Shown here: one piece after another, positions 36,569-52,084 of the stretch
Numbering within the stretch: the first letter of the stretch is position 1
Layout of the letters: every line of letters starts with the position of its first letter
Assembly: GCA_020846745.1 (NCBI GenBank)
Contig: JADLDI010000007.1
Location: 1-64,000, forward strand
Reading direction: 5' to 3'
Source of the DNA: Bryobacterales bacterium
GTDB lineage: Bacteria > Acidobacteriota > Terriglobia > Bryobacterales > Bryobacteraceae
DNA: 64,000 nucleotides
Position numbers and translations under genes: made by a program
The notes under the pieces: generated by a model
Seen by the model: the letters and a program-made list of their open reading frames with translations, nothing else
Told to the model about the DNA's origin: nothing
Databases searched by the model: none

Positions 36569-37918
36569 ATGCTTATCTACGAATTCCATATGCTTCCGTG
36601 GCTGGCTGAGTTATCCACTCGTTATCAACAAACCATTTCCCTGGCGAACGTTCCACCGATCGAGTGGGACCAGTTACAACAGTTAGGAATCGACACCGTC
36701 TGGCTGATGGGTGTTTGGAAGCGATCGGAGGAGGGAATCCGGATCGCGCGGACGCTGCCAGAGTTACAACCTGAGTACAAGCGCGCACTGCCCGATTTCG
36801 AACCATCGGATGTCGCGGGCTCGCCCTACTGCATTGCGGATTACACAGTAGACCCCCAGTTAGGCGGCGAGGCGGGCCTCGCGAAAGCTCGAGCCGATCT
36901 GTCGTCGCGAGGCATCAAACTGTTGCTCGACTTTGTGCCGAACCACACGGCGCCCGATCATCGCTGGACCACCGAGCACCCCGAATATTACTTGCAGCCG
37001 CTGCGCCCCGGCCGCGACCCGCACTTTCCGCCGTGGACCGACACCGTGCAGTTGAACGCGTTTGCGGACGAGTATCGCTCGGCGGCGGTGGCCTCGTTAC
37101 GTCGCATGGCGGCCATGTGCGACGGCGTCCGTTGCGACATGGCAATGCTGCTGATTAGTAACGTGTTCTCACGGACATGGAACCTGCCGGCCCCGGCAGC
37201 GGAATTCTGGGAGACGGTTATTCCGGCCGTGAAGCAGACGCGCGCGGACTTCCTCTTCATTGCAGAGGCGTATTGGGACCTGGAGCCGGCACTGCTGGGC
37301 GAAGGTTTCGACTACTGCTACGACAAGCGCCTGTACGATCGTCTGGTGCATGAAAACGCGGCTTCGGTGCGTGCCCACTTGGGCGCGGATCTGAAGTATC
37401 AATCACGGCTCATAAGGTTCTTGGAGAATCACGACGAGCCCCGCGCGGCCGCAACGTTCGCGCCGGACCGGCACCGGGCGGCGGCCGTGGCAACCTACTC
37501 ACTACCGGGCGCGACGCTGATACACCACGGCCAGTTGCACGGGGCCAAGCGGAAATTGCCGGTCCAATTGCGTCGCTATCCACCCGACCGCACGGACCCG
37601 CGCGATCCGGACTTATACCGCTTTTACAAAGCCGTGTTGACCACGCGTCCAACCGCGACTAACTGGACACTGCTGACTACGTCTAATCCGTCGCTGCTCG
37701 CGTGGCTGTGGGAGGGCGGACCGCTGGTGATCGTTAACTTCTCCGATGCTATGGCAGAGGGTCGCGTACACATACCGAACCTGCCGGATTGCATACTGCA
37801 CGATCCGCACGAGGGCGTCACTTTCGAGCGTCGCGGGGCGGAGATGGCCGAACCGGGGTTGTGGGTGCGGCTGGCGCCGTATGCCTCGCATTACTTCGAA
37901 CTGGTCGTCGGTGGTTGA
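36569..37918 (+). CDS. GH13 alpha-amylase-family enzyme, cytoplasmic
   Basis: A 449-aa protein with no signal peptide. The four GH13 conserved regions are present: KLLLDFVPNHTAPDH, GVRCDMAMLL with the Asp nucleophile, FLFIAEAYWD with the acid/base Glu, and FLENHDEPR with the third Asp. The opening IYEFHMLPWLAEL is typical of small bacterial GH13 proteins acting on maltodextrin, trehalose or glucosyl transfer. A C-terminal beta domain ends in LAPYASHYFELVV. The specificity cannot be read from sequence. The 3' end overlaps the convergent selenoprotein gene by 28 bp. Confidence 0.85.
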   Translation: MLIYEFHMLPWLAELSTRYQQTISLANVPPIEWDQLQQLGIDTVWLMGVWKRSEEGIRIARTLPELQPEYKRALPDFEPSDVAGSPYCIADYTVDPQLGGEAGLAKARADLSSRGIKLLLDFVPNHTAPDHRWTTEHPEYYLQPLRPGRDPHFPPWTDTVQLNAFADEYRSAAVASLRRMAAMCDGVRCDMAMLLISNVFSRTWNLPAPAAEFWETVIPAVKQTRADFLFIAEAYWDLEPALLGEGFDYCYDKRLYDRLVHENAASVRAHLGADLKYQSRLIRFLENHDEPRAAATFAPDRHRAAAVATYSLPGATLIHHGQLHGAKRKLPVQLRRYPPDRTDPRDPDLYRFYKAVLTTRPTATNWTLLTTSNPSLLAWLWEGGPLVIVNFSDAMAEGRVHIPNLPDCILHDPHEGVTFERRGAEMAEPGLWVRLAPYASHYFELVVGG

Positions 37919-38973
37919 GACTTACGCGCCCGCGTGCGGTCCTGCTCGGCGATATAGAGCCGGTAATCGAGCGGGACGGTGACCGGAGCGTAGCAGATCT
38001 TGTCGTCGCAAGCCTGATAGTAGAACCACGCCTGAACCTTTAGCTCACGATCGGGAGTTAGCGCCGCTGCGATCTCTTTTGGCTGGCCGACAACAACTTC
38101 GCGTGTCAGCCGAAACTTGCCTTGGTAGACAGGAACTGTTTCATTGATGGCGCGCAGACGTAGCAGACGGCCCTTGGGATAACTGCCGGCCAGCGTCACC
38201 CAGGCGGGCGACTCCTGAATCTTCCAGTCGATGGGCTTATATGAATCCTGGACACCCGGCGCATAAACGTGCATGCCGGGCAATAACTCCACGTCAAGCC
38301 CAACGGTTACGCGGCTGCCGACGTAGGCTTTCGTATTACTCGCCCACGTGCGCAGTTTCAGGTGTTTGGTCGTAAGTTCACGCCCTTCTTCGCCCAGCAG
38401 TCCAAAGTCCTTGACAAGGATCGAACCGGCGGTGAAGCGCTCGCGATAGTCGTCTTCAAAATACTTTGATTTCACCGTTCCCTGCGCGTCGACAATGTAA
38501 GTACCCGGGAATGGAACCCCGAAGAACTGGTTATCTTCGGGGATGTTGGTGTTCAGGATGCCGAACGCGCGGATCACCTTCGAACCTTCGTCTGCAAGCA
38601 GTGGATATGCGAGCGATACACGGTCGCTGAACTGCTTCAACACCGCCGGCGAATCGTAAGTCACGGCGGCTACTTTCAAACCTTGCCTTTCGAACTCTTT
38701 GGCTTTCTCCCCTAACTCGACCAGTTGGGCTTTGCAGTAAGGTCACCAATCGGCGGACCGGACGAAAGCCAGTACCAGCCCGTTCGGCCCGCGTAGCGAC
38801 TCGAAGGTCTGCTCGCGTCCGCTCTGGTCTTTCAGCGTGAATGCCGGAATCCGCTCGCCTATCCGTGGACCCGTCTGCATGTTGCGGCCGGCGTCCGGCA
38901 CGGGGCGAACGCGCGGACGGTCCTGCGCGGTTAGCGCAACGGCGGTGAGCAAACTCAGTAAGACTAAGTTCAT
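37891..38973 (-). CDS. selenocysteine redoxin fused to a DsbD-alpha-like domain
   Basis: One 360-aa protein read through an in-frame TGA at 38743-38745 (residue 77). The signal peptide is LVLLSLLTAVALTAQ. The AhpC/TSA-type redoxin has GERIPAFTLKDQSGREQTF, LVLAFVRSADW, the TGA, then PYCKAQLVELGEKA. The active site is therefore UPYC instead of CPYC. The fold continues through LKVAAVTYDSPAVL and GVPFPGTYIVDAQGTVKS. Residues ~220-345 resemble the DsbD N-terminal domain (LLPGMHVYAPG, YYQACDDKICYAPVTVPL) with Cys322 and Cys327. The fusion suggests a periplasmic Sec-redoxin with its own thiol relay. It starts directly at the stop of the DUF4175-like gene, the last of nine co-directional genes. Confidence 0.85.
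38710..38729 (-). promoter_or_regulatory. bacterial SECIS hairpin of the redoxin-DsbD fusion gene
   Basis: Fourteen bases after the UGA, CCCAACU pairs with AGUU-A-GGG, a 7-bp stem with one bulged A, closing the 5-nt loop GGUCG at 21-25 nt. A loop beginning GGUC resembles the SelB-binding loop of E. coli fdhF. This is strong support for selenocysteine insertion. Confidence 0.75.
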
Positions 38974-41900
38974 CTACCGCGACTTACTCAGACGCCGGAA
39001 GTATTCGGCCACCGAATCGCGATAGCCGTTCGGAACCGTTGCCGGTGTTGCGCTACGCACATGGTTGCCGGACTGATCTTCCAACTTGCGGCGCAATTGC
39101 AACTCAAGCTGTTCGACGCCCGAGCGCATTTCGCTGATCACCTTATCGACCAGCGCCGGGTTTCCGGGGAAACGGCTGGGGTCCAGCCGCTGCATGTCAC
39201 GGATAAATTGCTGCACCTCTTTGCTCGCCTCGGCGTCACCGGCGAGTTCCTGACGAATAGTGGATAACTCGCGCATGCCCTGCTGCCAGGCTTCCTGCGC
39301 CCCGCGAACGCCGTTCGGGTCGGGCATGCGGCCCAACTCCGGCCGGTACCCGCCGCTGTTCATAGCGGAGAAATCGCCCTCCGCGCGGCCGCCACCCTGC
39401 CGTGCTTCGCGCATTCCTCCCTGCATTCCGCTTTGGCCGCCACGCTGACCGTCCTGGCCGCCGGGGTTCTGGTTTCCCATCTGCCCTTGGCCCTGCCCTT
39501 GTCCACGCTGGCCTTGCTGCCCCTGTTGGCCCGCCTGTTGACCTTGGCCTTGCTGCCCCTGTTGGCCTTGTTGCTGACCTTGTTGCTGCCCCTGCTGCCC
39601 TTGCTGGCCTTGGCCCTGCTGGCCGCCGCGCTGGCCGTTCTGCTCACCTGGCCGTCGGGTCAGCATCTCCATCCGATGGCGCATCTGCTCCAGGCGATTC
39701 AAAGCAGACTCGATACCTTCTTTGCCGCCCTGCTGCTGTTGCTTGTTGCCGCCGGCATTGCCGCTCATCCGCTGCTGCGCTTCTTTCACCTGTTCGCGTA
39801 ACCGCTCGAGCGAGTTATTAATGGTGGGTTCGCGCATCACGGCATACTGGCCGAGACCGCGCCGTATCCAATCCGCACTGTACTTCATGCGCAGGCCGAG
39901 TTCGTTCTGCTGCAAGTTACCCAAAGCTTCGCGAAGCTTCGAGGCAGCCGCACGCTCCGACCCGGCCAAGTCGCGCGCCGCTTCCTGTAACTGCTTTTCG
40001 AGCCGCTGCAAATCTTCCATCATCTTCTGGCGCTCGTTGGCGAGTTCTTCGTTCTGCTTCTTATCCCCCATCGCGCGGCCGATGCCCTGCTGCTGTTGCT
40101 GTTGAGCCGCCGCACCGTAAGCCTTGTTCAATTTCTGCGTCAGGTTCTGCTGTTGATTAGCGAGTTGCTCGGCTTTGTTGGCTAACTCGGCCATCTCATC
40201 GCCGGCCTGCTGTTGCCGCATGCTGCCCAACGCGTCTCGCGCTTCCTGTAGTCGTTCCGCCGCCCGCCGCGCTTCGGCATCGCTCTGCTGTCCGTTCTGG
40301 CCGGTCGCCTTGCGCATGTCCTCGGTTGCTTGCCGCAACCGCTCCAGCGCTTTCTGCACGCGCGGATCGATACCTGAGTTCCGCGCCATCTGCTGCTGCT
40401 GCCGTTGTTGCTGTTGCTGTCCGGATTGCTGGCTTGACTGCTGACCGGACTGTTGGGCCGATTGCTGCTGGCCCGATTGCGATTGCTGCCCTTGCGACTG
40501 GCTATTGCCCCCTTGCGACGGCTGCCCCTGACCCTGCTGCTGTTGCTGGCGGCTCATCTGCTCCATCTTGCGCTGTAACTGCTCCGCTTCGCGGCGCAAC
40601 ATCTCCTGCTGCCAGCGCTGCTGGAAGCTCTGTTGATTCTGCCGCTGTTGCTGCGCGAGTTCCTGCTGGCGGCGGGCGAGTTGCTCTAACCGCTGCAGGG
40701 CTTCGTCCACTTCTTTATTGCGCTGGTCCTGCTTGGCCGATTGCTGGCCGGTCTCGTACTGGTTCTTTTCCGTGTCGAGTTCAAGGTCGAATAAGTTCTC
40801 AAGGTCGCGCGCGGCGCCGCCACCTCCACCGCCGCCTCCGCGGCGTCCAAAAGCCACCTGTATCTTCCGGAACGTCGATTCGGCACGGAGCAGGTGCTGC
40901 AAAGCCTTCTGTTCGTCGGGCAGCGCAGCGCTCCAATTCTGAGACTTCAGCTTTTCAGAGGCTGCGCCCATGGCGTCTGCCGCCGCCGTCATATCTTTGG
41001 CGAAATTCCCGAACTCCTGGTTTTCCATCGAGAGTTCGCGGCTCTGCATGCGCTTGGCGAGCGACTTAGCCTGGTCGCGCAACTTAGTTTGCGTATCCGA
41101 GAGGAACTTCCCTGCCTCGGCCTTGTCCGCCGCGCTCTTGGCGTGGCTGTCGCGCTGCTGGTTGAAGGTCGCGGAAATGATTTCCTTTTGACGAGCCGAA
41201 ATACCGCGGCCATCGTTTTCTTCTCCGCCGCCCCCGCCACCTCCGCCCTGCTGCTGCGATTGCGAGTATTCGCGTTCAAACGGCTGGGCTTCGATAAACA
41301 GGATGTCGCTACGGGTAGTGGACCGTGCATCCTTAGCGGTAGCGTAGAGACTTACTAAGTCGCCGGGAACCAGCTTGAAATCTTCGAGCGCGATCAGCGC
41401 CTGGCCGGCCGACTGCTTCGAACCACGCTGCTTTAACAAACTGAGCTTCTTCTCTTCCCCCCCGTTGACTGAATAATGAACGGTGACTTCCTGCAAACCG
41501 AAATCGTCGTCGGCCTCAACGGCCACGGCGACTTCTTCAATGGGGCTGGCCTTATAGTCACGGCCCGGACGGCTGATGCGAATGGTCGGCGGGTTCTCTT
41601 TCTTTGCCTCAATAAAGAAGTCCTCGCTGATGCGGACCATCTGGTCTCGATCGCGCGTCGAGATGTGATACAGCCCGTCCTTTTCGATCTTGATTTTGCC
41701 GCGGGCAGTATTGCCTGTTACCGTGAGTTCGTTATTCTTCTCGTTGTCGACAACGATCGCGCTCTGGCCCAGCGGCTTATCGGTTTCGATTTCGAGCAGC
41801 GCTTCCGTTCCTTCCACGGCGCGCAAGTCGCCGCCTTGTTCTTCCACTACGTTCTGGAGGCCGGTCCAGGAGGGGAACTGGTAAGTAACTTTGATCTTCT

Positions 41901-42732
41901 TGATTGCCGGTAAGTCGATCGCGTTCAGGTTGAACCGCTCCGAGCGGACCGCGCCGGCTTCGACATAGTATTCGACGCTCTCCGGCAGGCCGGCAAACAT
42001 GAACTCGAACCCCGGACCACCGGGTTGCGGAGCCATCGGCACCTGTTCCCACTTTGAGGTCGAGTGATAGCGGGCGTACAACCGGACTTTGTCTGTTGAA
42101 ACTCCAACTAACTCAGCGGTAATTAGCTGATCGGCCTTTCGGCGAACGGTAGCGTTGCCGGGTTTCACATTCACGGCATAGAACGCTTTCACGTCACCCT
42201 TGGGCGTTCCGGCCCAAAGCAGCGATGCGCCATGCCCCATATAGCCGGGTCCCGCAAGAATCAGCCACAACAAAACACCCAGGGCCGCAAGCCCGGCAAG
42301 TGCGGCGCCTGCAAGCTTCGCGCCGGGAACCATCATGCTGGGTTCGGATTGGCGAGCCACTTCCATGGTGTCCATCGCCAACAGGTCGACAAACGGGTCG
42401 GCCGCGGGCGCACGGTCAACATACGTAATAAGTCGCTCCTCGAATGCGGGAAACACCTTTTCCGCGCGCGCAGCGGCCCGGCGGCGATTCAGCCGGATGA
42501 GGGGTTGTGCAAGGCCATAACCAACGGCAAGCGCGAGCACGATGAAAAGCGCAAGGCGCGCGCCCGTCAGGCTTTCCGCCGAGAATGCGTAGCGGTTGAC
42601 GATCCATACCAGCAGGACGGTGGCAACCAGCGCCGCCGCAACGACAAATGCCGCTCCGCCCAGCAGCGTGATCATTCGCAGGCGCCGCTCCAGACGCCGC
42701 AAATACTCGTTTAGCAGTTCGCGCGTATTCAT
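38974..42732 (-). CDS. DUF4175-like giant membrane protein with Gln/Gly-rich region
   Basis: About 1,252 aa from the ATG at 42732, which overlaps the upstream stop by 4 bp; a longer start is not needed. Residues ~20-75 hold two transmembrane helices (MITLLGGAAFVVAAALVATV; LALFIVLALAVGYGL), with a third near 155. A large periplasmic beta-rich part follows (IKKIKVTYQFPSWTG, VEADDDFGLQEVTVHY). Then come coiled-coil stretches and extreme low complexity: Gly-runs near 497 and 634 and Gln-rich blocks near 725-785 and 1025-1125. It sits next to BatA/DUF58/MoxR genes as in other acidobacteria. Possibly a periplasmic tether or scaffold. Confidence 0.75.
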   Translation of the reverse strand: MNTRELLNEYLRRLERRLRMITLLGGAAFVVAAALVATVLLVWIVNRYAFSAESLTGARLALFIVLALAVGYGLAQPLIRLNRRRAAARAEKVFPAFEERLITYVDRAPAADPFVDLLAMDTMEVARQSEPSMMVPGAKLAGAALAGLAALGVLLWLILAGPGYMGHGASLLWAGTPKGDVKAFYAVNVKPGNATVRRKADQLITAELVGVSTDKVRLYARYHSTSKWEQVPMAPQPGGPGFEFMFAGLPESVEYYVEAGAVRSERFNLNAIDLPAIKKIKVTYQFPSWTGLQNVVEEQGGDLRAVEGTEALLEIETDKPLGQSAIVVDNEKNNELTVTGNTARGKIKIEKDGLYHISTRDRDQMVRISEDFFIEAKKENPPTIRISRPGRDYKASPIEEVAVAVEADDDFGLQEVTVHYSVNGGEEKKLSLLKQRGSKQSAGQALIALEDFKLVPGDLVSLYATAKDARSTTRSDILFIEAQPFEREYSQSQQQGGGGGGGGEENDGRGISARQKEIISATFNQQRDSHAKSAADKAEAGKFLSDTQTKLRDQAKSLAKRMQSRELSMENQEFGNFAKDMTAAADAMGAASEKLKSQNWSAALPDEQKALQHLLRAESTFRKIQVAFGRRGGGGGGGGAARDLENLFDLELDTEKNQYETGQQSAKQDQRNKEVDEALQRLEQLARRQQELAQQQRQNQQSFQQRWQQEMLRREAEQLQRKMEQMSRQQQQQGQGQPSQGGNSQSQGQQSQSGQQQSAQQSGQQSSQQSGQQQQQRQQQQMARNSGIDPRVQKALERLRQATEDMRKATGQNGQQSDAEARRAAERLQEARDALGSMRQQQAGDEMAELANKAEQLANQQQNLTQKLNKAYGAAAQQQQQQGIGRAMGDKKQNEELANERQKMMEDLQRLEKQLQEAARDLAGSERAAASKLREALGNLQQNELGLRMKYSADWIRRGLGQYAVMREPTINNSLERLREQVKEAQQRMSGNAGGNKQQQQGGKEGIESALNRLEQMRHRMEMLTRRPGEQNGQRGGQQGQGQQGQQGQQQGQQQGQQGQQGQGQQAGQQGQQGQRGQGQGQGQMGNQNPGGQDGQRGGQSGMQGGMREARQGGGRAEGDFSAMNSGGYRPELGRMPDPNGVRGAQEAWQQGMRELSTIRQELAGDAEASKEVQQFIRDMQRLDPSRFPGNPALVDKVISEMRSGVEQLELQLRRKLEDQSGNHVRSATPATVPNGYRDSVAEYFRRLSKSR

Positions 42733-44741
42733 GTTTGTTCCCTCTGCACTCCCAGGTAGCGGCTGGCCAGGAAAGATTCGGCCATCGCCGCAGCCAGTAC
42801 CAGCAGCATGACATACCACCACAACCTTCGCTGCTGTTGCTGTTGCTCCAGATCGAACGAAGCGGAGCCTGCCGCATTTTGTGGACCACCCTCGCCGGTC
42901 CACAGCGCGATGGTCTCCGCGGGAATTACGGTTAGTTCTGACTCGCGGCGGTCGGGATTAACCGCCACCATCTCATTGCGCCCGTTGGCGCGGCGAATTT
43001 CGTAGAAGCCGGCTTTCGGCGCTTGGAACGTCTCAGCCGTCGTGGCCTCACGCAGCGACAACGGACGTGTGCCGCCAGGGTCGATTACTTCCACCGAAAG
43101 CGACTGTTCTTTCGCCGACCGAAGTTCCAGAAAAGCGTTCACTACTTTCGAGTTACTGCGCTCTTCTATCCCGGCAAGATATCGTGCGGTCTGCTCAACA
43201 AACGGCACAAAGGCCGGCAGCAGCGGCAGATCGTTCGAGACGTTATCGAACGTAGACCCAAAGTACAGCACGCGGCCTTCGCCGATCTTCTTATCGAGTA
43301 TTAGTGGCGTCTGGTCGGAAAGCTTGGTAACTACGCGAGCGCCGGCCGGATCCACCTTCACTATATAATAGAACTTCACGCCATCCCATTTACCCGTGCG
43401 GCGCATCGATGCATGCGTATTATCCGTATCTCCTACCGTGGCGAACCGTTCGCCCGCGCGCGAGAATTGCTTCGCCTCCGTCACAGCCGCATCGAGAACC
43501 GGAATGCGCGAGTGGCTGGCCGTTGACGGTCCTGCGGCAATCCACAAGCTGCCACCCGCGCGCACCCACTTCTGTAACCTCTCTTCAAACTGCGGGGGCA
43601 AAGAAAGTACGTTCGATAAGACCACAAAGGCAAAGCGCGTGGGTTCGAGATTTCCAGTCTGCTCGCTCGCCACGCTTTCCATGGCGAATGCCGTATCCGC
43701 GGCCGAGCCGAGCGCCGACTGAAAATACAGGGGAGACTTGCTGTCGCGCCCTTCGTGCACAAATAGCACTTTCCGCGGATCCGACCGTTCTACCGAAAAC
43801 AGCGCCGCGTCATCGGCCGCGAGCGCATCCGCGGAATCGATCCGGATTTCACATTTTGAAAAGCCGTACGGCACATCCAGGCCTTGAAACTCAACCGTCG
43901 CGCGGCCGTTCGCGGGCACATTAACCGGCTTACTCGTGACACTCTTGCCGTTAATAACCAGGCTCGCGCTACGCGTCGTGTCGTTGGTTGCATAACCCGC
44001 GATGGTCGCCTGAACACGCGCTTTCTTCGTGTCTGAAACGGATGCGGGCGCACTAACCGACTCAACGGTCCAGTTAGGTTGATCTTTCGCTTCCACCGGA
44101 TGACTGACTAGCTTCACTTTGCCGGGTAACTGCAGATCCGCAAACCCGCCCGGCATAGCCGACTTCTGCATGTCGCTGATCAGGTGCACTTCCAGATTCT
44201 GCGGCGATGCGGCGGCCAGTCCGCGCAACGCGCGCGCAAACTCGCCGTAACTGCCGAAACTGTCGCTTGGTTTGATCGATTCGACGGCGGCGCGCAATTC
44301 TCCTGCATTGTCGATCGGCTCTGTCAGCATGCGTAATTGAAATGCAAGCGCGGCCACCTGTGCCTTCTCGCCCGATTTCCGCCCGGCCAGCACTTCGCTC
44401 GCGATGCGCTTGGCTTCCGACAGCCGGTTGCCCGCGCGCATACTGAACGATTCATCCACAACCACCAGTAGCCGCCGTGTCCCGTCTCCCGCGCCGGCGC
44501 GTTCGGAGACGAACGGATTCGCGAACGCCAACACCAACAGTGCCAGCAACCCGATACGAAGCGCCAGCAGCGCCAGGTACTTTAGCCGCCGGTGCTTGAT
44601 TGAGCTTTGTGTCCGCTGTTCGAAAAACATCAGCGAACTCCACATCACCGGGGTATTCCGGTGTTGACGCAGTAAGTGCAGGTAAACCGGCAGGCCGAGT
44701 GCGAACAGTCCCGCAAAAAACCAGGGCGACAGAAAACCCAC
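42729..44741 (-). CDS. BatA-type membrane protein with VWA domain
   Basis: A 670-aa protein. MGFLSPWFFAGLFALGLPVY followed by HLLRQHRNTPVMWSSLMFFE is the BatA N-terminal signature, with a second helix in LALLALRIGLLALLVLAFAN. A von Willebrand A domain follows with MIDAS residues in LLVVVDESFSMRAG. A glutamine-amidotransferase-like segment (FAFVVLSNVLSLPPQFEERL, GRVLYFGSTFDNVSND) and a final helix (LWWYVMLLVLAAAMAESFL) complete it. In Bat operons such proteins act with MoxR and DUF58 in envelope stress or protein maturation. It is coupled to its neighbours on both sides. Confidence 0.85.
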   Translation of the reverse strand: MGFLSPWFFAGLFALGLPVYLHLLRQHRNTPVMWSSLMFFEQRTQSSIKHRRLKYLALLALRIGLLALLVLAFANPFVSERAGAGDGTRRLLVVVDESFSMRAGNRLSEAKRIASEVLAGRKSGEKAQVAALAFQLRMLTEPIDNAGELRAAVESIKPSDSFGSYGEFARALRGLAAASPQNLEVHLISDMQKSAMPGGFADLQLPGKVKLVSHPVEAKDQPNWTVESVSAPASVSDTKKARVQATIAGYATNDTTRSASLVINGKSVTSKPVNVPANGRATVEFQGLDVPYGFSKCEIRIDSADALAADDAALFSVERSDPRKVLFVHEGRDSKSPLYFQSALGSAADTAFAMESVASEQTGNLEPTRFAFVVLSNVLSLPPQFEERLQKWVRAGGSLWIAAGPSTASHSRIPVLDAAVTEAKQFSRAGERFATVGDTDNTHASMRRTGKWDGVKFYYIVKVDPAGARVVTKLSDQTPLILDKKIGEGRVLYFGSTFDNVSNDLPLLPAFVPFVEQTARYLAGIEERSNSKVVNAFLELRSAKEQSLSVEVIDPGGTRPLSLREATTAETFQAPKAGFYEIRRANGRNEMVAVNPDRRESELTVIPAETIALWTGEGGPQNAAGSASFDLEQQQQQRRLWWYVMLLVLAAAMAESFLASRYLGVQREQT

Positions 44742-44744
44742 GCG

Positions 44745-45632
44745 CTATAACCTCCCCTGGCGAATGCTCAGATACTCGCGTAGCACGCCATCAAGCGGCC
44801 GGTCAGTTACCGCCAGGTAATAGTCCATGCCCGCGCCGTGCGCCTTGCTCCTCAGTTCCTGGATATGGTTATCGATCTTCGCCGGATACTCATGGAGCGC
44901 GTACTCCGGAGTTACCTCCATACTGTCGTTCGTTTCAACGTCAACGAGAATCACGGGGCCGTCGAACGTCGGCCGCACCTCCATCGGATGCAGAATATGG
45001 AACAAAACAACATCGTTACCGCGGTAACGGATCGGTTCGATCGTTTTCACGATCGTTTCCGGATCGGCAAAGAAATCCGATATCACCACAACGATTCCAC
45101 GGCGCTTGATGGCTTCCTGAAAGTGGTGAAACGGCTTGCCGTAATCGGTTCGAGCGTTCGGTTCTGCGTGCTCGATACCGTGCAGCAGGCGGTGTAACTG
45201 CCCCTGCCGCGTTGACGGAGGAACATAGTGCCGCACTTCGTCATCAAATATGATCAACCCGGCGGCATCGCGCTGCTGATTCGCCAGGTAACTCAGCGAC
45301 GCCGCCAGATAGCGTGTGTAATCGATCTTCGGCACGCCGCCTTTTGGCGCGCCCATCGTGGCGCTCGCGTCAACTAATAGCGTCAACTGGCAGTTCGTCT
45401 CGCCACGGTATTTCTTCAGATACGCACGTTCGGTACGCGCATAAACGTTCCAGTCCACATGGCGTAGATCGTCCCCGGGAGTGTATGGGCGGTACTCGGC
45501 AAATTCCTGGCTGAAGCCGTAGTCGGGCGAGCGATGCAATCCGGACACAAATCCATCCACCACGGTTTTGGCGATGAGGTCCAGGCTGGCAACGCTCGCG
45601 AGAACTTCCGGCTTGAGGAATCGCTGCAGCAT
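44745..45632 (-). CDS. DUF58 domain protein
   Basis: A 295-aa cytoplasmic VWA-like protein. The DUF58 core is plain: YRPYTPGDDLRHVDWNVYAR, then RAYLKKYRGETNCQLTLLVD, ASATMG and YLANQQRDAAGLIIFDD. DUF58 proteins are the constant partners of MoxR ATPases and are thought to present clients or sense metal ions through the MIDAS-like site. It lies 5 bp after moxR and 3 bp before the BatA-type gene. Confidence 0.92.
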   Translation of the reverse strand: MLQRFLKPEVLASVASLDLIAKTVVDGFVSGLHRSPDYGFSQEFAEYRPYTPGDDLRHVDWNVYARTERAYLKKYRGETNCQLTLLVDASATMGAPKGGVPKIDYTRYLAASLSYLANQQRDAAGLIIFDDEVRHYVPPSTRQGQLHRLLHGIEHAEPNARTDYGKPFHHFQEAIKRRGIVVVISDFFADPETIVKTIEPIRYRGNDVVLFHILHPMEVRPTFDGPVILVDVETNDSMEVTPEYALHEYPAKIDNHIQELRSKAHGAGMDYYLAVTDRPLDGVLREYLSIRQGRL

Positions 45633-45637
45633 GTCGG

Positions 45638-46663
45638 TTAGTCTTTCGGCGGCGGCATGTGGTCGAGCAGCCGGCGCAAGATCTGATCCTGGCTCAGCTT
45701 TTCCGACTCTGCCTGGAAGTTCAGCAGAATGCGGTGACGCAGCACTGGGATCGCCAGCGCGGTGACGTCTTCGTAGGAAACGTGGTACCGCCGGCGGGCC
45801 AGCGCACGGGCTTTGGCCGCAAGCACGATGAACTGCGATGCCCGGACGCTCGCGCCATAATTGACGTACTTCCGAATAAAATCAGGAGCCTCTGCCGTGC
45901 TGTTGCGCGTGGCCCGCACAAGGTTCACGGCGTAGCGGGCCACCGGCTCGGCGATCGGCACCATGCGGACCAGTTGTTGAAACCCCAAAATTTCCTCGGC
46001 GTTCGTGACGGCGTCCACCTTCGCGCTCTGCGTCGTTGTAGTGAGGCTAATAACTTTCACTTCGTCGGCGGCATCGAGATAGTCGAGAACCGTATTGAAC
46101 AGGAACCGGTCTAACTGCGCTTCCGGCAGCGGGTAAGTGCCTTCCAACTCGATAGGGTTCTGCGTCGCAAGCACAAAAAACGGAGCCGGTAGCTTGTAAA
46201 CGTTACCGCGGACCGTACAGGACACCTCCTGCATGGCCTCGAGCAGCGCGGACTGTGTCTTCGGTGGCGTGCGGTTGATTTCATCCGCCAGCAGCACGTT
46301 ACCGAATATCGGGCCCTGGACGAAAGTCCAGCGGCGGTGACCTGTGGTGGGGTCCTCTTCAATAATGTCGGTGCCGGTAATATCCGACGGCATCAGGTCG
46401 GGCGTGAACTGGATGCGCTTGAAGATCAGTCCGAGCGTCTGGGCGATGGTGCGCACCATCAATGTTTTTGCCGTGCCGGGCAATCCGGTAATGAGGCAAT
46501 GGCCGCCGACAAACAGCGCGATCAGAATCTGTTCGAGCACTTCTTCCTGCCCGACGATCACTTTCCTTACCTGCTGTAGAATCTGGTCGCGTGCTTCCTG
46601 GAACCGCTCTATACGAGCTTTCAGTTCCGTCGAATCGAGTGTCACTTGAGCAACGGTGGACAT
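45638..46663 (-). CDS. MoxR-family AAA+ ATPase
   Basis: A 341-aa ATPase. The Walker A motif is GLPGTAKT (60-67), Walker B is VLLADEINRTPPKTQSALLE, and sensor/Arg-finger text appears in ATQNPIELEGTYPLPEAQLD followed by RFLF. These are MoxR hallmarks. The C-terminal lid has YVNYGASVRASQFIVLAAKA and VTALAIPVLRHRI. MoxR hexamers act as chaperones that mature or load metal into partner enzymes, usually with VWA proteins encoded beside them, as here. It overlaps nothing but is packed 3-5 bp from both neighbours. Confidence 0.95.
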   Translation of the reverse strand: MSTVAQVTLDSTELKARIERFQEARDQILQQVRKVIVGQEEVLEQILIALFVGGHCLITGLPGTAKTLMVRTIAQTLGLIFKRIQFTPDLMPSDITGTDIIEEDPTTGHRRWTFVQGPIFGNVLLADEINRTPPKTQSALLEAMQEVSCTVRGNVYKLPAPFFVLATQNPIELEGTYPLPEAQLDRFLFNTVLDYLDAADEVKVISLTTTTQSAKVDAVTNAEEILGFQQLVRMVPIAEPVARYAVNLVRATRNSTAEAPDFIRKYVNYGASVRASQFIVLAAKARALARRRYHVSYEDVTALAIPVLRHRILLNFQAESEKLSQDQILRRLLDHMPPPKD

Positions 46664-46666
46664 GAA

Positions 46667-48898
46667 TCAGGGCTTCTCTTTCCGATTGTTGATCTCCAGC
46701 AGCATCTTCTGTGCGGGGCGAAATCCCGGTGCGGATTCCAATGCCTGGAGTAAATGATCTTCCGCTTTGTCTGATTGCCGTGCGGCCTGGTAAGCGCGGG
46801 CGATATTAAAGTGAGCGGTGGCCTTATCCTGCGCGCCGCTGGCCAGCGCCGCCTGAAATTCGCGCACGGCGCCCGCATTATTTTGCAGGCCAAGCAGTAA
46901 CTCGCCTAATCGCTTGTGCAACTCTTCGTCGTTGACCGGGTAGATATAATTCACCTTCTCGAGCGTAGCGGCGGCGCTCTTCTTGTCTCCGGCCTCTTCC
47001 TGCAGGGCGGCTAACTGCTTCAGCGTGTCGGGCGAACGCCCGCCGTTACGCAGATAGGTCGTAAGTACCGCGATGGCCTGCTTCTTCTGGCCTTTCGCGA
47101 TGTGCGCCTTGGCCAGGAACTCGTAGGCATTCGCGGCCTCCACATAGTCGGGATAGAGCTTTACAACCTCGTCGCCCTTGTTGATCACCTCGTCGTACTT
47201 CTCCGCTTTCGTCGCTTCGGCCAGTGCGCGGATGCTCTTGCGCCACTGTTCGAAGTTGTTGACGGTCGGGTTAACAGACTTATCGAGCCAGGCAAGAAAA
47301 TCTTTGTCAAAGGCTTCGGGCTTTACGGCCAACACCTGCTCGATCACCTCGGGCGTGCTCTTGCGGGCGGCGAACGCGTGCATCATCGCCAGCACCTTGT
47401 CCCATCCCCACTTCTGCACGATGTAATCGATGATCCGTCCACCCTGAAAGTAAGAGACGATAACCTGGTTCGGGTAATTCGGGCGGATGAAGCCGCGATC
47501 AAGTTCAGAAATCGGCAGTAGCCTCTTATCCTTGACGGCCATCAGGATGTCGGGCGTGAGACGGTCGCCCCAATCCGGATAGATCGCTGTTTCTTCGTGA
47601 ACCGCCACGCCCTCCGTAAACCATCGCGGAACACGGTGCTTGGTAGCAGTTAACACAAACACGTGCGATAACTCATGCCACAGCGTGCTGGCCCAGTGGA
47701 ACGTGCCGGGCTTGCGGCCGGACGGGCTATCCATTGCCACCACGTCGCCGAAAGTAACTCCGAGAGCGCCAAGTCCCGGCATACCCATGGTCCGGACCGC
47801 GAAGTCTTCATGGTCCGGATAGACTTCCAACTGCACCGCGCGCGGTAATTTAACCTTGTACTTGGCTTCGTACGTTTTGATGGACTTCCGCAATTCCTCC
47901 TCGAAGTAGAGCTTGAGCAGGTCCGCTTCTTTCTTGTCCAAGCGGACAATCGTCGTATCGGTCTTAAACGTGACGTAGCGCTTGTAGCTGTCCATCAGGC
48001 GCAGGGAGTTAACCGTCTGCGCATTTCTGCAACCGTTCTCATAGGCCTTTTCCAACTGCCTGCGGGCGTCGTCTTCCAAGCCGACCCGCATCAGGTTGAC
48101 GCCTAACTCGCTGTGCGTAGCCCAGTCTTCCGGATCCAGTTCGATGGCCTTCTTGTAATGCGCGATTCCTTCTTCGTAGCGCCGGTTGATAACCAGGTGA
48201 TGCGCGATCAGCGCATGGCCTGCGCCGTACACGGGGTTGACCGCGTATATCTTCTGCAGCCATTCCTCTGCTGGACGGTCCGCCAGGATCTCAACCGCTG
48301 CACGAATGGCCAGCGCATCGAGCGCTTCGCCGGACATTTTCAACGCTTTGTCCGCCTCTTCAACCGCCTTCTTGGGATTGGAGTCTTCGAGCGCAAGGTT
48401 GGCTAGTAACTCCTGGGCTTCCACTAACTTCGGGTCAAGCTCCAGGGCTTTCTTCGCCAGTTCCGTCGCCTTGCTTTCAAACCCCCCAGAAGCAATCAGC
48501 GCCAGGCCCAGGTGCGCGGCGGCGTTGTTCTTGTCAATCTCTAAGGCTTCCTGAAACAGGTCGGCGCCATCCTGCCGGTTACCGTTAAACGGCTCAATCA
48601 ACAGGCGTCCCCAGCGGACCTTTATGCGCGGATCTTTGGGAAAGCGGTCGGCCGCCACGCGGAAGGCCTCATGCGCCGCCTTATAGTTGCGCAACCCGTA
48701 CAATCCTTCGGCCAGCAGATAGAGATCGCTCGATTGGGCGAGCTTCGCATAACACGCCCGGGCTTCGGCGCGCTTACCACGATGGTCTAACTGCCGGCAC
48801 GGCGCGACACGATCTTCACCCGAGCCCGCCGTTTGCGTTGGCGCGGCGCATGCCACCATCCCGAAACATACTGCCAGTCCCCACACCCGCAACACCAC
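46667..48898 (-). CDS. TPR protein with peptidase MA-like metalloprotease domain
   Basis: A 743-aa protein with an N-terminal export or lipoprotein-like signal (LAVCFGMVACAAPTQT). Residues ~40-300 are TPR repeats (AYGYLAEGLYGLRNYKAAHE-type pairs, HYKKAIELDPEDWATHSELG). The central domain has LWHELSHVF (~405) and RVPRWFTEGVAVHEE. This is the HExxH plus downstream Glu of gluzincin-type peptidase MA proteins. Further TPRs follow to the end. All zinc ligands appear present, so it may be an active protease. It sits between the caspase-like gene and moxR in the operon. Confidence 0.8.
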   Translation of the reverse strand: MVLRVWGLAVCFGMVACAAPTQTAGSGEDRVAPCRQLDHRGKRAEARACYAKLAQSSDLYLLAEGLYGLRNYKAAHEAFRVAADRFPKDPRIKVRWGRLLIEPFNGNRQDGADLFQEALEIDKNNAAAHLGLALIASGGFESKATELAKKALELDPKLVEAQELLANLALEDSNPKKAVEEADKALKMSGEALDALAIRAAVEILADRPAEEWLQKIYAVNPVYGAGHALIAHHLVINRRYEEGIAHYKKAIELDPEDWATHSELGVNLMRVGLEDDARRQLEKAYENGCRNAQTVNSLRLMDSYKRYVTFKTDTTIVRLDKKEADLLKLYFEEELRKSIKTYEAKYKVKLPRAVQLEVYPDHEDFAVRTMGMPGLGALGVTFGDVVAMDSPSGRKPGTFHWASTLWHELSHVFVLTATKHRVPRWFTEGVAVHEETAIYPDWGDRLTPDILMAVKDKRLLPISELDRGFIRPNYPNQVIVSYFQGGRIIDYIVQKWGWDKVLAMMHAFAARKSTPEVIEQVLAVKPEAFDKDFLAWLDKSVNPTVNNFEQWRKSIRALAEATKAEKYDEVINKGDEVVKLYPDYVEAANAYEFLAKAHIAKGQKKQAIAVLTTYLRNGGRSPDTLKQLAALQEEAGDKKSAAATLEKVNYIYPVNDEELHKRLGELLLGLQNNAGAVREFQAALASGAQDKATAHFNIARAYQAARQSDKAEDHLLQALESAPGFRPAQKMLLEINNRKEKP

Positions 48899-48899
48899 G

Positions 48900-49823
48900 C
48901 TATTTGTCTATTGCCTCCTGTATCCGTGCCAACTCAAGCAGCAACCCCTGTAACTGCTTGCGATATTGATCGGCCGGCATGGCCGCTTTCTCGTATTTCA
49001 GTTGATCGATCTTCTGTTCGATCTGTTCCTTTCGAGCTAACAGTTGTTGCTTGGCCGGGTCAGACGCCGCGCGCTGCACCGAGCCGAGCCGCAGCACCGG
49101 AAAGCGCGACGCCACCAGTCCCTGGCCGTTGTCGGGCGACGGAGCGCGAACGCCGCCGCCCTTGCCTGTATCTTCCAGCACCGCATGTTCCGTAGCCAGG
49201 CGCTTCTGCGTTTCGTAGAACGCGGTGGTCTTGCGGTCGGCGTACCGATACGCCTCCAGCGCGCTGACTGTCTCGTTCTTGTCGGTATCGGCGGTCGGGT
49301 CGCGCAGAGCTTCCACCCAGTAGCGCGCGAACACCGTCGCATTCTTCTCCGTACCGGCCTTGGTGGCGGAAATCACCGTACGATTGGCTTTCTGCAACGC
49401 ACTGACAGAGCCGCCGCTGGCGCTCGTTGTATTGACCACTAACTGCCGCTGTGCCGGCACACGATCGCACCATGCCGCTAAGTCGACCGCCGTAACATCC
49501 GGACCTTTCACATTGAACTTATATTCCGCGCCATCGAACGTCCCGTGGCCGATCAGGATCAGCACGAACGCATCGTCCGGTTTAGCGTCACGCGCAACGG
49601 CGTTGATCGTCTCCTGAATCTTGGCCTTAGTTGAACTCTCACCGAACAGCGTGTGTACCTTCACCTCGCCGCCCGAGCCGTTCAGGATCTTGTCCAGTTC
49701 CTTGGCCAAACCGGTGAAGCGCGTCTCGTAATCCTGTTCGCCACCGAGTCCGGCCACCGTCACATAGTGCACAGCAGCTTGTGCGGAAAGCACCGCTGCG
49801 AGCAAGGCTGCAAGAAGCCTCAT
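48900..49823 (-). CDS. exported caspase-like (C13/C14-fold) protein, catalytic Cys replaced
   Basis: A 307-aa protein from the ATG at 49823, giving an ATGA overlap with the upstream VWA gene; a GTG at 49835 is less likely. Signal peptide RLLAALLAAVLSAQA. The caspase-like fold is seen in AVHYVTVAGLGGEQDYETRF, DAFVLILIGHGTFDG (His-Gly of the dyad) and QLVVNTTSASGGSVSAL. Active family members read NxCxSG at that last site; here a Ser replaces Cys. The C-terminus is a coiled coil (ARKEQIEQKIDQLKYEKAAM). It looks like a non-catalytic substrate-binding relative, though a Ser-dependent activity cannot be excluded. Confidence 0.65.
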   Translation of the reverse strand: MRLLAALLAAVLSAQAAVHYVTVAGLGGEQDYETRFTGLAKELDKILNGSGGEVKVHTLFGESSTKAKIQETINAVARDAKPDDAFVLILIGHGTFDGAEYKFNVKGPDVTAVDLAAWCDRVPAQRQLVVNTTSASGGSVSALQKANRTVISATKAGTEKNATVFARYWVEALRDPTADTDKNETVSALEAYRYADRKTTAFYETQKRLATEHAVLEDTGKGGGVRAPSPDNGQGLVASRFPVLRLGSVQRAASDPAKQQLLARKEQIEQKIDQLKYEKAAMPADQYRKQLQGLLLELARIQEAIDK

Positions 49824-52084
49824 ACCACCCCCCACTTACGCCGCAGCAGCCATTCCGCTCCGCGCAGGCCCACTAACAGCAGGAACACCGCGGGCAGGTT
49901 CCACAGGTCGCGCGTTTCGCGAACGCTAATCCCTGCCTCCGAGTAACTGATCTCTTCCGGTAACTTCCGTAGATCGCCCGGCTTCCAGTACCGTCCGCCC
50001 GTTTGCTGGGCCAGCTTTTCCAATAAGTCGCGATTCTGGTTGATATGGAAATTCTCAGCCACGCCATCCTGCCGCTGAAAAGTAAGAACATCACGTCCAA
50101 CCTCTTCATTCGCGCGCCGTGCCGTGATTTCCGTCAGATACTGCCCGGACCGGTCTGCCGTAAATTCAGCCGTATAAAGCCCCGGAGTAACCGGGTCGGG
50201 CAACATCGCGAATGTGCCGCCAGACCCCTGCGGACCCATCACGTGCGCCTCCACGGCGACGTCCGACGCGGGCAAGTAACTCTTGTCCCGAACCTCGACC
50301 GAAATCTTCGTCTTTGCCTCATCGAGCAGCGTCGGTTTCGAAACCGACGAAATAACCTGTCCAGGTGTATCGGTAACCAGCCAACGCATTAATTGCTGCC
50401 AGAAGACTTCGTGCGTCATGTCTTCGAGTGGCTGGCTCATCTGCCACCGCCACGTTCCACCGGTAGCGAGCACAGCGCTCCGGCCCCGTCCGTAATTCTG
50501 CGTCACCAGAAACGGCATCTCGCCGCGCCCGCCGGGATTCAGCTGCGCCAGCACGGCCGCGCCCGGCTTGGGCGTTCCGATTTCCTGGTAATCCGCTAGA
50601 TACGGCAGTTTCTTCCAGCGCTCGATATTCTGCGCGGGGTCTTCGATAAGCCGGCAAATCAGGCTATCGAAACCCGCCGGGGCCAGCGATACCGTGGCCG
50701 GGTCGCGGTGGAACGTACCCTTCCGGTCAGGCAGTGTCACGGGCAGTAAGTCGACCAATGGCGACCTCGCGTATCCGCCGTCAGACAGCGCCGCCCGTCC
50801 TCCCAACATCAGCAGACCACCGCCCCGCCGGTCCACAAACTCCTTGATGAGTTCCTGCTGGGCGACGGTAAACGTGCCCAGTTCCACGCTGCCGATCACC
50901 AGTGCCTGGTACCCGAATAACTCCTCCACCTTACTTGGGAACCCTTCCTCTAATTCCTTGGCCTCGCCGATACCCTGACGGTAGATCTTATTCTGCGTCG
51001 TTCGCAGCATGCTGACCAGTTGAACGGCTTTATCATCCTCCAAAGCGCGGCGGATGAACTTATACTCCCAGCGCGGCTCGCCTTCAAAATAAAGTACACG
51101 CGGCTTGCCCGCCTCGACATTCACCATGCGCGCCGTGGAGTTATTCTTGGTATTCTCTTCGTCGCCCAAACTCTCGGCGCCTATCGTCAGCGCGCGTGCG
51201 CCGGGCTTACCGGCCTGGAACAGCACCGTCTCGGTTTGCAGATTGTCTTCTTTGCCGAGCGTCACCTCGCGCGACGACAGCACCTTCCCCGCATCCTTGA
51301 CGGTAAGGCGAACCCGGCGGCCGGAATAGCCGGTCTGCCGCAGCGTGATCTGGGCCGCGATACGCGAATCCTGCAATGCGCGCGCCGGCACCTGTACATC
51401 CGCGATCTCGAGATCCTTCGCCAGCCGCTCCCGCCCAAACCCGACCGTATGCACCGGAATACTGCGATTCCGCAATTCGCTGATAGCCGAGTAATCGATG
51501 CCGCCGGCGTTGTCGGCCCCGTCGGTCAACAGCACCACCGCACCCAGCGGCAACCCGGCAGACTCAAACACAATCTGCTTCAACCCGTCGCCGATATGCG
51601 TGGAACTCGATTGCGCCGTGAGCGTGTCCACCTTCGGTATCCGTTCGGCGATATCGCCCAGCCGGTACACGCGTGTTTGAAAGCGCTTTTGCAGATCGGT
51701 TAGCACGCCGCCCTGCAACAGCGACTTGGCTTTTTCAAGACGCGGTTGCCCGTCATCCGCCTGGTTCATGCTGAGGGAATTGTCCACCACCACCGCGACC
51801 ACATTCTGTTGCGGCTTGAGCGTCGAAACCAGAATGGCGGGCTGCCACAGCAGAATCAGGATCACCGCCAGTAACGTACTTTGCAGCGCCCATATCACCG
51901 CCGTGCGCCAACCAGCTACGCCTGCTGCGGCGGCACGCCGCAACCGGTCGCGCATCAGCCATCCGAGCACCGCCGCACCCGCCAGAATCAGCAGAATCAG
52001 CACCCATTTCGGCCACGTCCCTAACAGGACAAACTCCCCCTTCGCGAATACGGAACGCGGATATCGAAAGAGGAATTCGAACAT
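49820..52084 (-). CDS. VWA/GATase-like membrane protein
   Basis: A 754-aa protein. N-terminal helices (WVLILLILAGAAVLGWLM; TAVIWALQSTLLAVILILL) precede a VWA domain with MIDAS DNSLSMNQ and LLTDGADNAGG. The middle has beta-sandwich segments, then a glutamine-amidotransferase-like fold (FGYQALVIGSVELGTFTVAQ, GGGLLMLGGRAALSDGGYA) without an obvious catalytic Cys. A final helix (LWNLPAVFLLLVGLRGAEWLL) ends it. Such proteins resemble a larger BatA/BatB-like partner and probably form a membrane complex with the BatA-type protein and MoxR/DUF58. Confidence 0.8.
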   Translation of the reverse strand: MFEFLFRYPRSVFAKGEFVLLGTWPKWVLILLILAGAAVLGWLMRDRLRRAAAAGVAGWRTAVIWALQSTLLAVILILLWQPAILVSTLKPQQNVVAVVVDNSLSMNQADDGQPRLEKAKSLLQGGVLTDLQKRFQTRVYRLGDIAERIPKVDTLTAQSSSTHIGDGLKQIVFESAGLPLGAVVLLTDGADNAGGIDYSAISELRNRSIPVHTVGFGRERLAKDLEIADVQVPARALQDSRIAAQITLRQTGYSGRRVRLTVKDAGKVLSSREVTLGKEDNLQTETVLFQAGKPGARALTIGAESLGDEENTKNNSTARMVNVEAGKPRVLYFEGEPRWEYKFIRRALEDDKAVQLVSMLRTTQNKIYRQGIGEAKELEEGFPSKVEELFGYQALVIGSVELGTFTVAQQELIKEFVDRRGGGLLMLGGRAALSDGGYARSPLVDLLPVTLPDRKGTFHRDPATVSLAPAGFDSLICRLIEDPAQNIERWKKLPYLADYQEIGTPKPGAAVLAQLNPGGRGEMPFLVTQNYGRGRSAVLATGGTWRWQMSQPLEDMTHEVFWQQLMRWLVTDTPGQVISSVSKPTLLDEAKTKISVEVRDKSYLPASDVAVEAHVMGPQGSGGTFAMLPDPVTPGLYTAEFTADRSGQYLTEITARRANEEVGRDVLTFQRQDGVAENFHINQNRDLLEKLAQQTGGRYWKPGDLRKLPEEISYSEAGISVRETRDLWNLPAVFLLLVGLRGAEWLLRRKWGVV

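Follow-up and report, generated by a model that had tools for sequence, protein, structure and literature searches.

A predicted exported selenoprotein of Acidobacteriota that joins a UPYC redoxin domain to a DsbD-alpha-like domain

Among described selenoproteins, those with peroxiredoxin-like or redoxin domains are closest to the gene reported here. Table 1 of a 2026 review, which holds 119 selenoprotein families by its own count, includes UxxC Prx-like proteins (PF00578), a Redoxin family protein (PF08534, UxxC, HEU0032618.1) and TsoB (PMC13188914). The gene that we describe lies on a stretch of 64,000 nucleotides from a Bryobacterales bacterium (contig JADLDI010000007.1, positions 1 to 64,000; hereafter the window), where it occupies 37891..38973 on the minus strand. 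It is predicted to encode an exported selenoprotein of 360 residues, in which a redoxin domain with a UPYC active site is followed by a DsbD-alpha-like domain with a cysteine pair. With the Prx-like thiol:disulfide oxidoreductase selenoproteins it has in common the AhpC-TSA domain and a UxxC motif with selenocysteine (Sec) in first place, but those proteins are catalogued by one domain, whereas here a second redox domain with a Cys pair is found in 99 copies (PMC13188914). The Redoxin family protein is alike in its redoxin domain and UxxC motif; it was compared by its table entry, and may or may not possess the second domain found here (PMC13188914). In the GOS Prx-like 3/Unknown_3 fusion, a UxxC Prx-like selenoprotein is also joined to a domain with conserved Cys, but the description of Unknown_3 gives three conserved Cys, two of them in a CxxC, in place of the one invariant CxxxxC pair seen here (PMC2398784, compared by description).

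The gene product also resembles proteins outside these entries. DsbD has the same alpha-domain fold and Cys pair, but our protein is devoid of the membrane domain and of a DsbD-kind thioredoxin domain, and the partner of its alpha-like domain is a redoxin of the AhpC/TSA type with Sec. The TlpA/ResA/CcmG redoxins are alike in their CxxC-type site, in a Pro at the ResA Pro position and in a signal-like N-terminus, but in our family the first Cys gives way to Sec in 74 of 99 copies and an alpha-like domain is fused to the redoxin. TsoB (NF045694) is also a selenoprotein and described as rhodanese/DsbD fusion-like, but it is itself a rhodanese with a UxxxxU motif and two Sec, and NF045694 is not among the 19 NCBIfam models that match our protein at E values up to 1, none of which reaches its cut-off. 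Both domains and the UxxC motif are already known, while the redoxin/DsbD-alpha fusion is not named in Table 1 of the review, whose entries are descriptions (PMC13188914), nor in the accessible text, mostly open literature without supplements, of five other sources (PMC9312934, PMC2398784, PMC12013277, PMC1794560, PMC5029168). This agrees with an earlier note, made from the letters of the window alone, whose author knew of no such combination among named selenoproteins. The fusion may have been seen before under a generic name, as the catalogue entries were compared by description only.

The reading frame runs on the minus strand from an ATG at 38973 to a TAA ending at 37891 (361 codons), and its sole interruption is a TGA at codon 77 (38743..38745), in the peptide context SADW-TGA-PYCKAQL. 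The earlier note had joined two open reading frames (ORFs) over this TGA and claimed that homology continues across it. Both claims stand, since codon 77 lies inside the AhpC-TSA/redoxin match (residues 38-169, 38467..38862, minus strand; Pfam 1e-30, with fold comparison in agreement), and the alignment of 99 copies is likewise uninterrupted. Elsewhere in the window TGA is an ordinary stop, terminating 12 of the 35 mechanical ORFs of at least 250 residues.

For comparison, 129 loci (L031-L159) were collapsed by identical 120-nucleotide context into 99 distinct copies, the window's own included. Codon 77 is TGA in 74 of them and a Cys codon in 25, never TAA or TAG, and aligned residues 30-345 contain no second stop. 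All 99 copies have Cys80, Cys322 and Cys327. In the protein database, 120 of 1489 homologues were listed; of these, 92 carry Cys at site 77, 19 start after the site, and the rest carry Trp (3), Ser (3), Asp (2) or Leu (1). The TGA thus falls on the first Cys of a CxxC as had been proposed, with Ser, Asp or Leu in six of the listed proteins. Because TGA ends an ORF in such entries, Sec forms appear there as fragments; the window gene's own fragment is one of the 19, and P0003, a metagenome protein with 85% identity, has its annotated start likewise downstream of the site. The three Trp rows are perhaps TGA codons translated with another code. Codon 77 is very likely read as Sec.

The Ser and Asp rows (P0004-P0008) are proteins of 610-617 residues. 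P0004 and P0006 contain two copies of the unit per chain, in the second of which Ser or Asp occupies the Sec position, and their annotated start lies just past the site expected in the first copy; P0005, P0007 and P0008 were grouped with them by length and motif only.

Bacterial selenocysteine insertion sequences (SECIS) are described as having a loop of 3-9 nucleotides with a G in its first two positions, placed 16-37 nucleotides from the TGA, a stem of 4-16 bp and a minimum free energy of -7.5 kcal/mol or lower (PMC13188914). Downstream of codon 77 the window gene carries a SECIS-like hairpin, CCCAACU[GGUCG]AGUUAGGG (38710..38729, minus strand), whose loop begins 20 nucleotides after the TGA; loop, G, spacing and stem agree with the published values, and the energy is borderline. 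Place, GGUCG loop and 7 bp are as the earlier note had them, but the stem also contains one bulged A that went unmentioned. Folding energy was rejected as evidence for a SECIS, as shuffled sequences fold comparably: none of four folded segments around the TGA clearly surpasses its shuffles (z +1.26, +0.95, +0.67 and -0.04). Searches with Rfam were negative, both over the window at gathering scores and in the surroundings of the TGA with E values up to 5.

A clearer signal comes from the relatives. Each gene was scanned for hairpins with a stem of at least 4 bp, a G at loop position 1 or 2 and a loop start 14-37 nucleotides after the TGA. In the 74 TGA genes, the best hairpin has its loop start at 20 nucleotides (36 genes), 21 (35) or 24 (2), and one gene has none; against synonymous shuffles its mean z is -1.29, compared with -0.03 in the Cys genes. 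Covariation was scored in 65 of the 74 TGA segments, nine close relatives having been removed by hand. The stem score was reached by none of 500 shuffles, which ignore kinship, whereas in the 25 Cys genes 470 of 500 shuffles reach it and covariation is absent. One stem pair, for example, is GC in 36 genes, AU in 26 and GU in 2, and pairing, 91.0% in register, does not exceed 41.5% once the partner columns are shifted by 1-3. Because a stem in the same place covaries in TGA relatives and not in Cys relatives, the hairpin of the window gene is probably more than a chance structure.

The genome of the host (7.83 Mb in 157 contigs, 97.9% complete, 5.4% contamination) encodes SelA, SelB, SelD and tRNA-Sec (selC; anticodon tca by ARAGORN), as the earlier note had advised checking; ARAGORN assigns a second tRNA hit above the family cut-off to tRNA-Ser. 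The three outcomes set in advance as contradicting Sec, namely missing Sec genes, homologues with neither Cys nor Sec at the site, and homology lost at the TGA, were all looked for, and none of the results contradicted Sec, although six of the 120 listed database proteins have Ser, Asp or Leu at the site. SelB was surveyed in 54 hand-picked genomes and exceeds its cut-off in 30/30 with the TGA gene, in 3/12 with the Cys form only (Cys confirmed in 12/12) and in 9/12 with neither gene. The host selD gene (contig C77, 111140-112063, L026) itself contains one in-frame TGA, and the selenophosphate synthetase is probably a selenoprotein too, judging from its reading frame.

The N-terminal domain has the AhpC/TSA fold with a thioredoxin-type UxxC: it matches PF00578, and the UPYC site comprises residues 77-80 (38734..38745, minus strand), with Sec77 and Cys80, as seen in the sequence and its conservation. 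Two structure-based alignments were used, A4 with 60 of 121 proteins and A6 with 24 loci and the window gene. The best-ranked structures for the domain include BcpB, PrxQ and AhpE. The peroxiredoxin signature includes a catalytic Arg besides PxxxTxxC. In our family the Pro, Thr and Arg positions are filled by Arg72 or Ser73 (97/99 and 98/99 copies), Sec/Cys77 and Pro156 (98/99), and Cys80 is the only residue that matches the peroxidatic Cys. Membership in the peroxiredoxins was rejected, since PxxxTxxC is missing and Pro156 stands where the catalytic Arg is expected; the AhpC/TSA redoxin of the earlier note is therefore right as to fold, but without the peroxiredoxin signature.

Structural modelling gives the C-terminal domain a DsbD-alpha-like fold. 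Pfam DsbD_N covers residues 216-332 (37978..38328, minus strand); its score barely exceeds the cut-off when the whole protein is scanned (25.6 bits, cut-off 25) and is 28.4 bits with the domain alone. The model also matches 24 of the 25 C-terminal domains that were aligned. With Foldseek alone, ScsB ranks top at 1.3e-4 and DsbD is absent from the 50 listed rows, whereas VIA-align on the Foldseek candidates places DsbD-alpha or ScsB in its first 11 rows. Sequence searches of the domain against the PDB gave two weak matches of other kinds with phmmer and none with a profile (E up to 5). Profile comparison with the host's own DsbD upholds the DsbD-alpha assignment, and the Cys322 (38008..38010) and Cys327 (37993..37995, both minus strand) codons encode the CxxxxC pair, so that the two-cysteine DsbD-alpha domain recognised in the earlier note is substantiated. 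A full DsbD is defined by the membrane domain PF02683 and a C-terminal thioredoxin domain. Neither was found when all 360 residues were scanned with Pfam at E values up to 0.1, and a Thioredoxin_8 match below cut-off overlies the redoxin domain.

Residues 1-20 (38914..38973, minus strand) form a hydrophobic, signal-like stretch, as judged from the sequence and from comparison across copies. Of the 97 copies whose start was usable, 86 have such an N-terminus, compared with 4 of 593 internal control segments, a count biased upward by the choice of the best start codon per gene. Export of the protein is therefore likely.

Taken together, we favor, with a probability of about 0.62, a predicted exported thiol-disulfide reductase in which the DsbD-alpha-like domain would recharge the UPYC site of its own chain, with Sec77 as the reactive residue. 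Substrate attack in thioredoxin-fold enzymes comes from the leading residue of CxxC, and DsbD-alpha donates electrons to redoxin-family partners such as CcmG. By this scheme, Sec would be inserted at codon 77 by SelB and the hairpin; Sec77 would be the attacking nucleophile and Cys80 the resolving residue that releases the substrate and leaves an Se-S bond; two electrons from Cys322/Cys327 would then reduce this bond, and the Cys pair would in turn be re-reduced by the membrane DsbD of the host. Oxidised protein thiols, or a peroxide, are candidate substrates. The "self-contained" relay of the earlier note stays conjectural, because the host genome encodes a separate membrane DsbD, with membrane and thioredoxin domains, as the likely ultimate donor.

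Several observations weigh against this proposal. The hairpin of the window gene is weaker than those of its relatives (bulged A; uninterrupted stem of 4 bp; -5.9 kcal/mol alone), and its fold energies stand at the edge of the -7.5 kcal/mol limit (-7.4 with 46 nucleotides, -7.8 with 51). The energy of the full folded segment discriminates weakly between TGA and Cys genes (mean z -0.78 vs -0.36), and one of five covariation measures, that of further pair types, is not above shuffles (424/500). Among the listed homologues, one protein has Leu at the site (P0050), and five tandem-copy proteins have Ser or Asp. The 60 relatives searched include a single genome of the same genus (G001, 87% complete), and in it both a close match and a SelB above the cut-off are missing, a pattern as if gene and SelB had been lost or gained together. 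In addition, no conserved gene neighbour among the relatives' loci points to a pathway, and the exchange of electrons between the two domains is something that we infer.

This last point would suit an arrangement in which the domains work independently, the alpha-like domain docking elsewhere or serving structure or targeting while a separate thioredoxin-like protein reduces Sec77. We hold this improbable, as both redox sites are co-conserved in 99/99 copies and DsbD-alpha is known in complexes with other thiol-redox domains (1vrs, 1z5y, 1jzd), the partner in 1z5y being presumably CcmG. A peroxidase, in which Sec77 or Cys80 reduces peroxides and the alpha-like domain is a built-in reductant, has more in its favor and yet appears unlikely. 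AhpC-TSA homology and the ranking of BcpB, PrxQ and AhpE speak for it, and selenols can reduce peroxides without the peroxiredoxin motif, but the replaced Pro, Thr and Arg positions, with Cys80 alone fitting, speak against it.

The TGA itself could be explained otherwise. A recent nonsense mutation or an assembly error, with the downstream half a separate short ORF, would be in keeping with the weak hairpin and with the single assembly at hand. Nevertheless, a TGA at one and the same codon in three quarters of the distinct copies, the covarying hairpin, the otherwise intact frame and the same downstream start in P0003 render a broken gene hardly credible, and we reject it on the comparison of TGA and Cys across the 99 copies. 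A reassigned code or a suppressor tRNA that decodes TGA as Trp or Cys might be read from the three Trp rows if these are TGA translated with another code, but this is equally far-fetched, given the use of TGA as a stop elsewhere in the window and the presence of tRNA-Sec, SelA, SelB and SelD in the host.

Matches at E 1e-30 or better occur in 104 of 399 genomes of the class, and profile matches at 1e-50 in 39 of 297 genomes of the phylum, in both cases some over half the length only. Record titles of the relatives, from which the phylum is taken, are mostly Acidobacteria, Terriglobia and Bryobacterales; a few are Acidimicrobiia, Chloroflexi, Desulfobacterales, Deltaproteobacteria or Gammaproteobacteria, which may be binning or naming errors. 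On plasmids, 95 records have partial matches and none covers 80%. A quick tree of 99 rows requires 9 undirected Sec/Cys changes, of which starred branches force 5 or more, the stars being less certain where long rows are present. We lean, slightly less firmly than for the reductase, towards a selenoprotein family that spans the phylum Acidobacteriota and has been overlooked: a reductase acting outside the cytoplasm, with its own DsbD-alpha-type feeder, mostly in the Sec form, with several Sec/Cys switches that track gain and loss of the Sec machinery, and often annotated as a post-TGA fragment of about 260-270 residues.

Because a single soluble protein would hold both a selenol site and a DsbD-type thiol pair, it could be used to trace how electrons move between sulfur and selenium outside the cytoplasm, and Sec and Cys relatives in one phylum offer a natural test of the benefit of selenium. 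Genome G049 contains both a TGA copy (C330, L040) and a Cys copy (C70, L168). Part of the family is hidden in annotation because gene calls cut Sec forms at the TGA, as seen from the 19 of 120 listed homologues that start after the site.

Upstream, a DUF4175 gene outside the redoxin/DsbD-alpha family (38974..42903, minus strand) ends in a TAG that touches the ATG of the selenoprotein gene, and the two are perhaps co-transcribed. The selenoprotein gene ends a run of minus-strand ORFs (38974-52084) in which the DUF4175 gene follows a BatA/VWA gene. This neighbourhood is absent from the 30 largest neighbour clusters of the relatives, the largest of which (27 ORFs, 25 loci) consists of antisense ORFs over the gene itself, while the next covers 15 of 81 loci, with varying distance and orientation. 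At L169:225-1688 (minus strand) in genome G005, an additional N-terminal 3-keto-disaccharide hydrolase domain (PF06439, 9.9e-28) precedes the Sec-redoxin and DsbD_N domains. One in-frame TGA is also seen in some further, shorter redoxin-like matches among the relatives, which hints at additional redoxin selenoproteins in this group.
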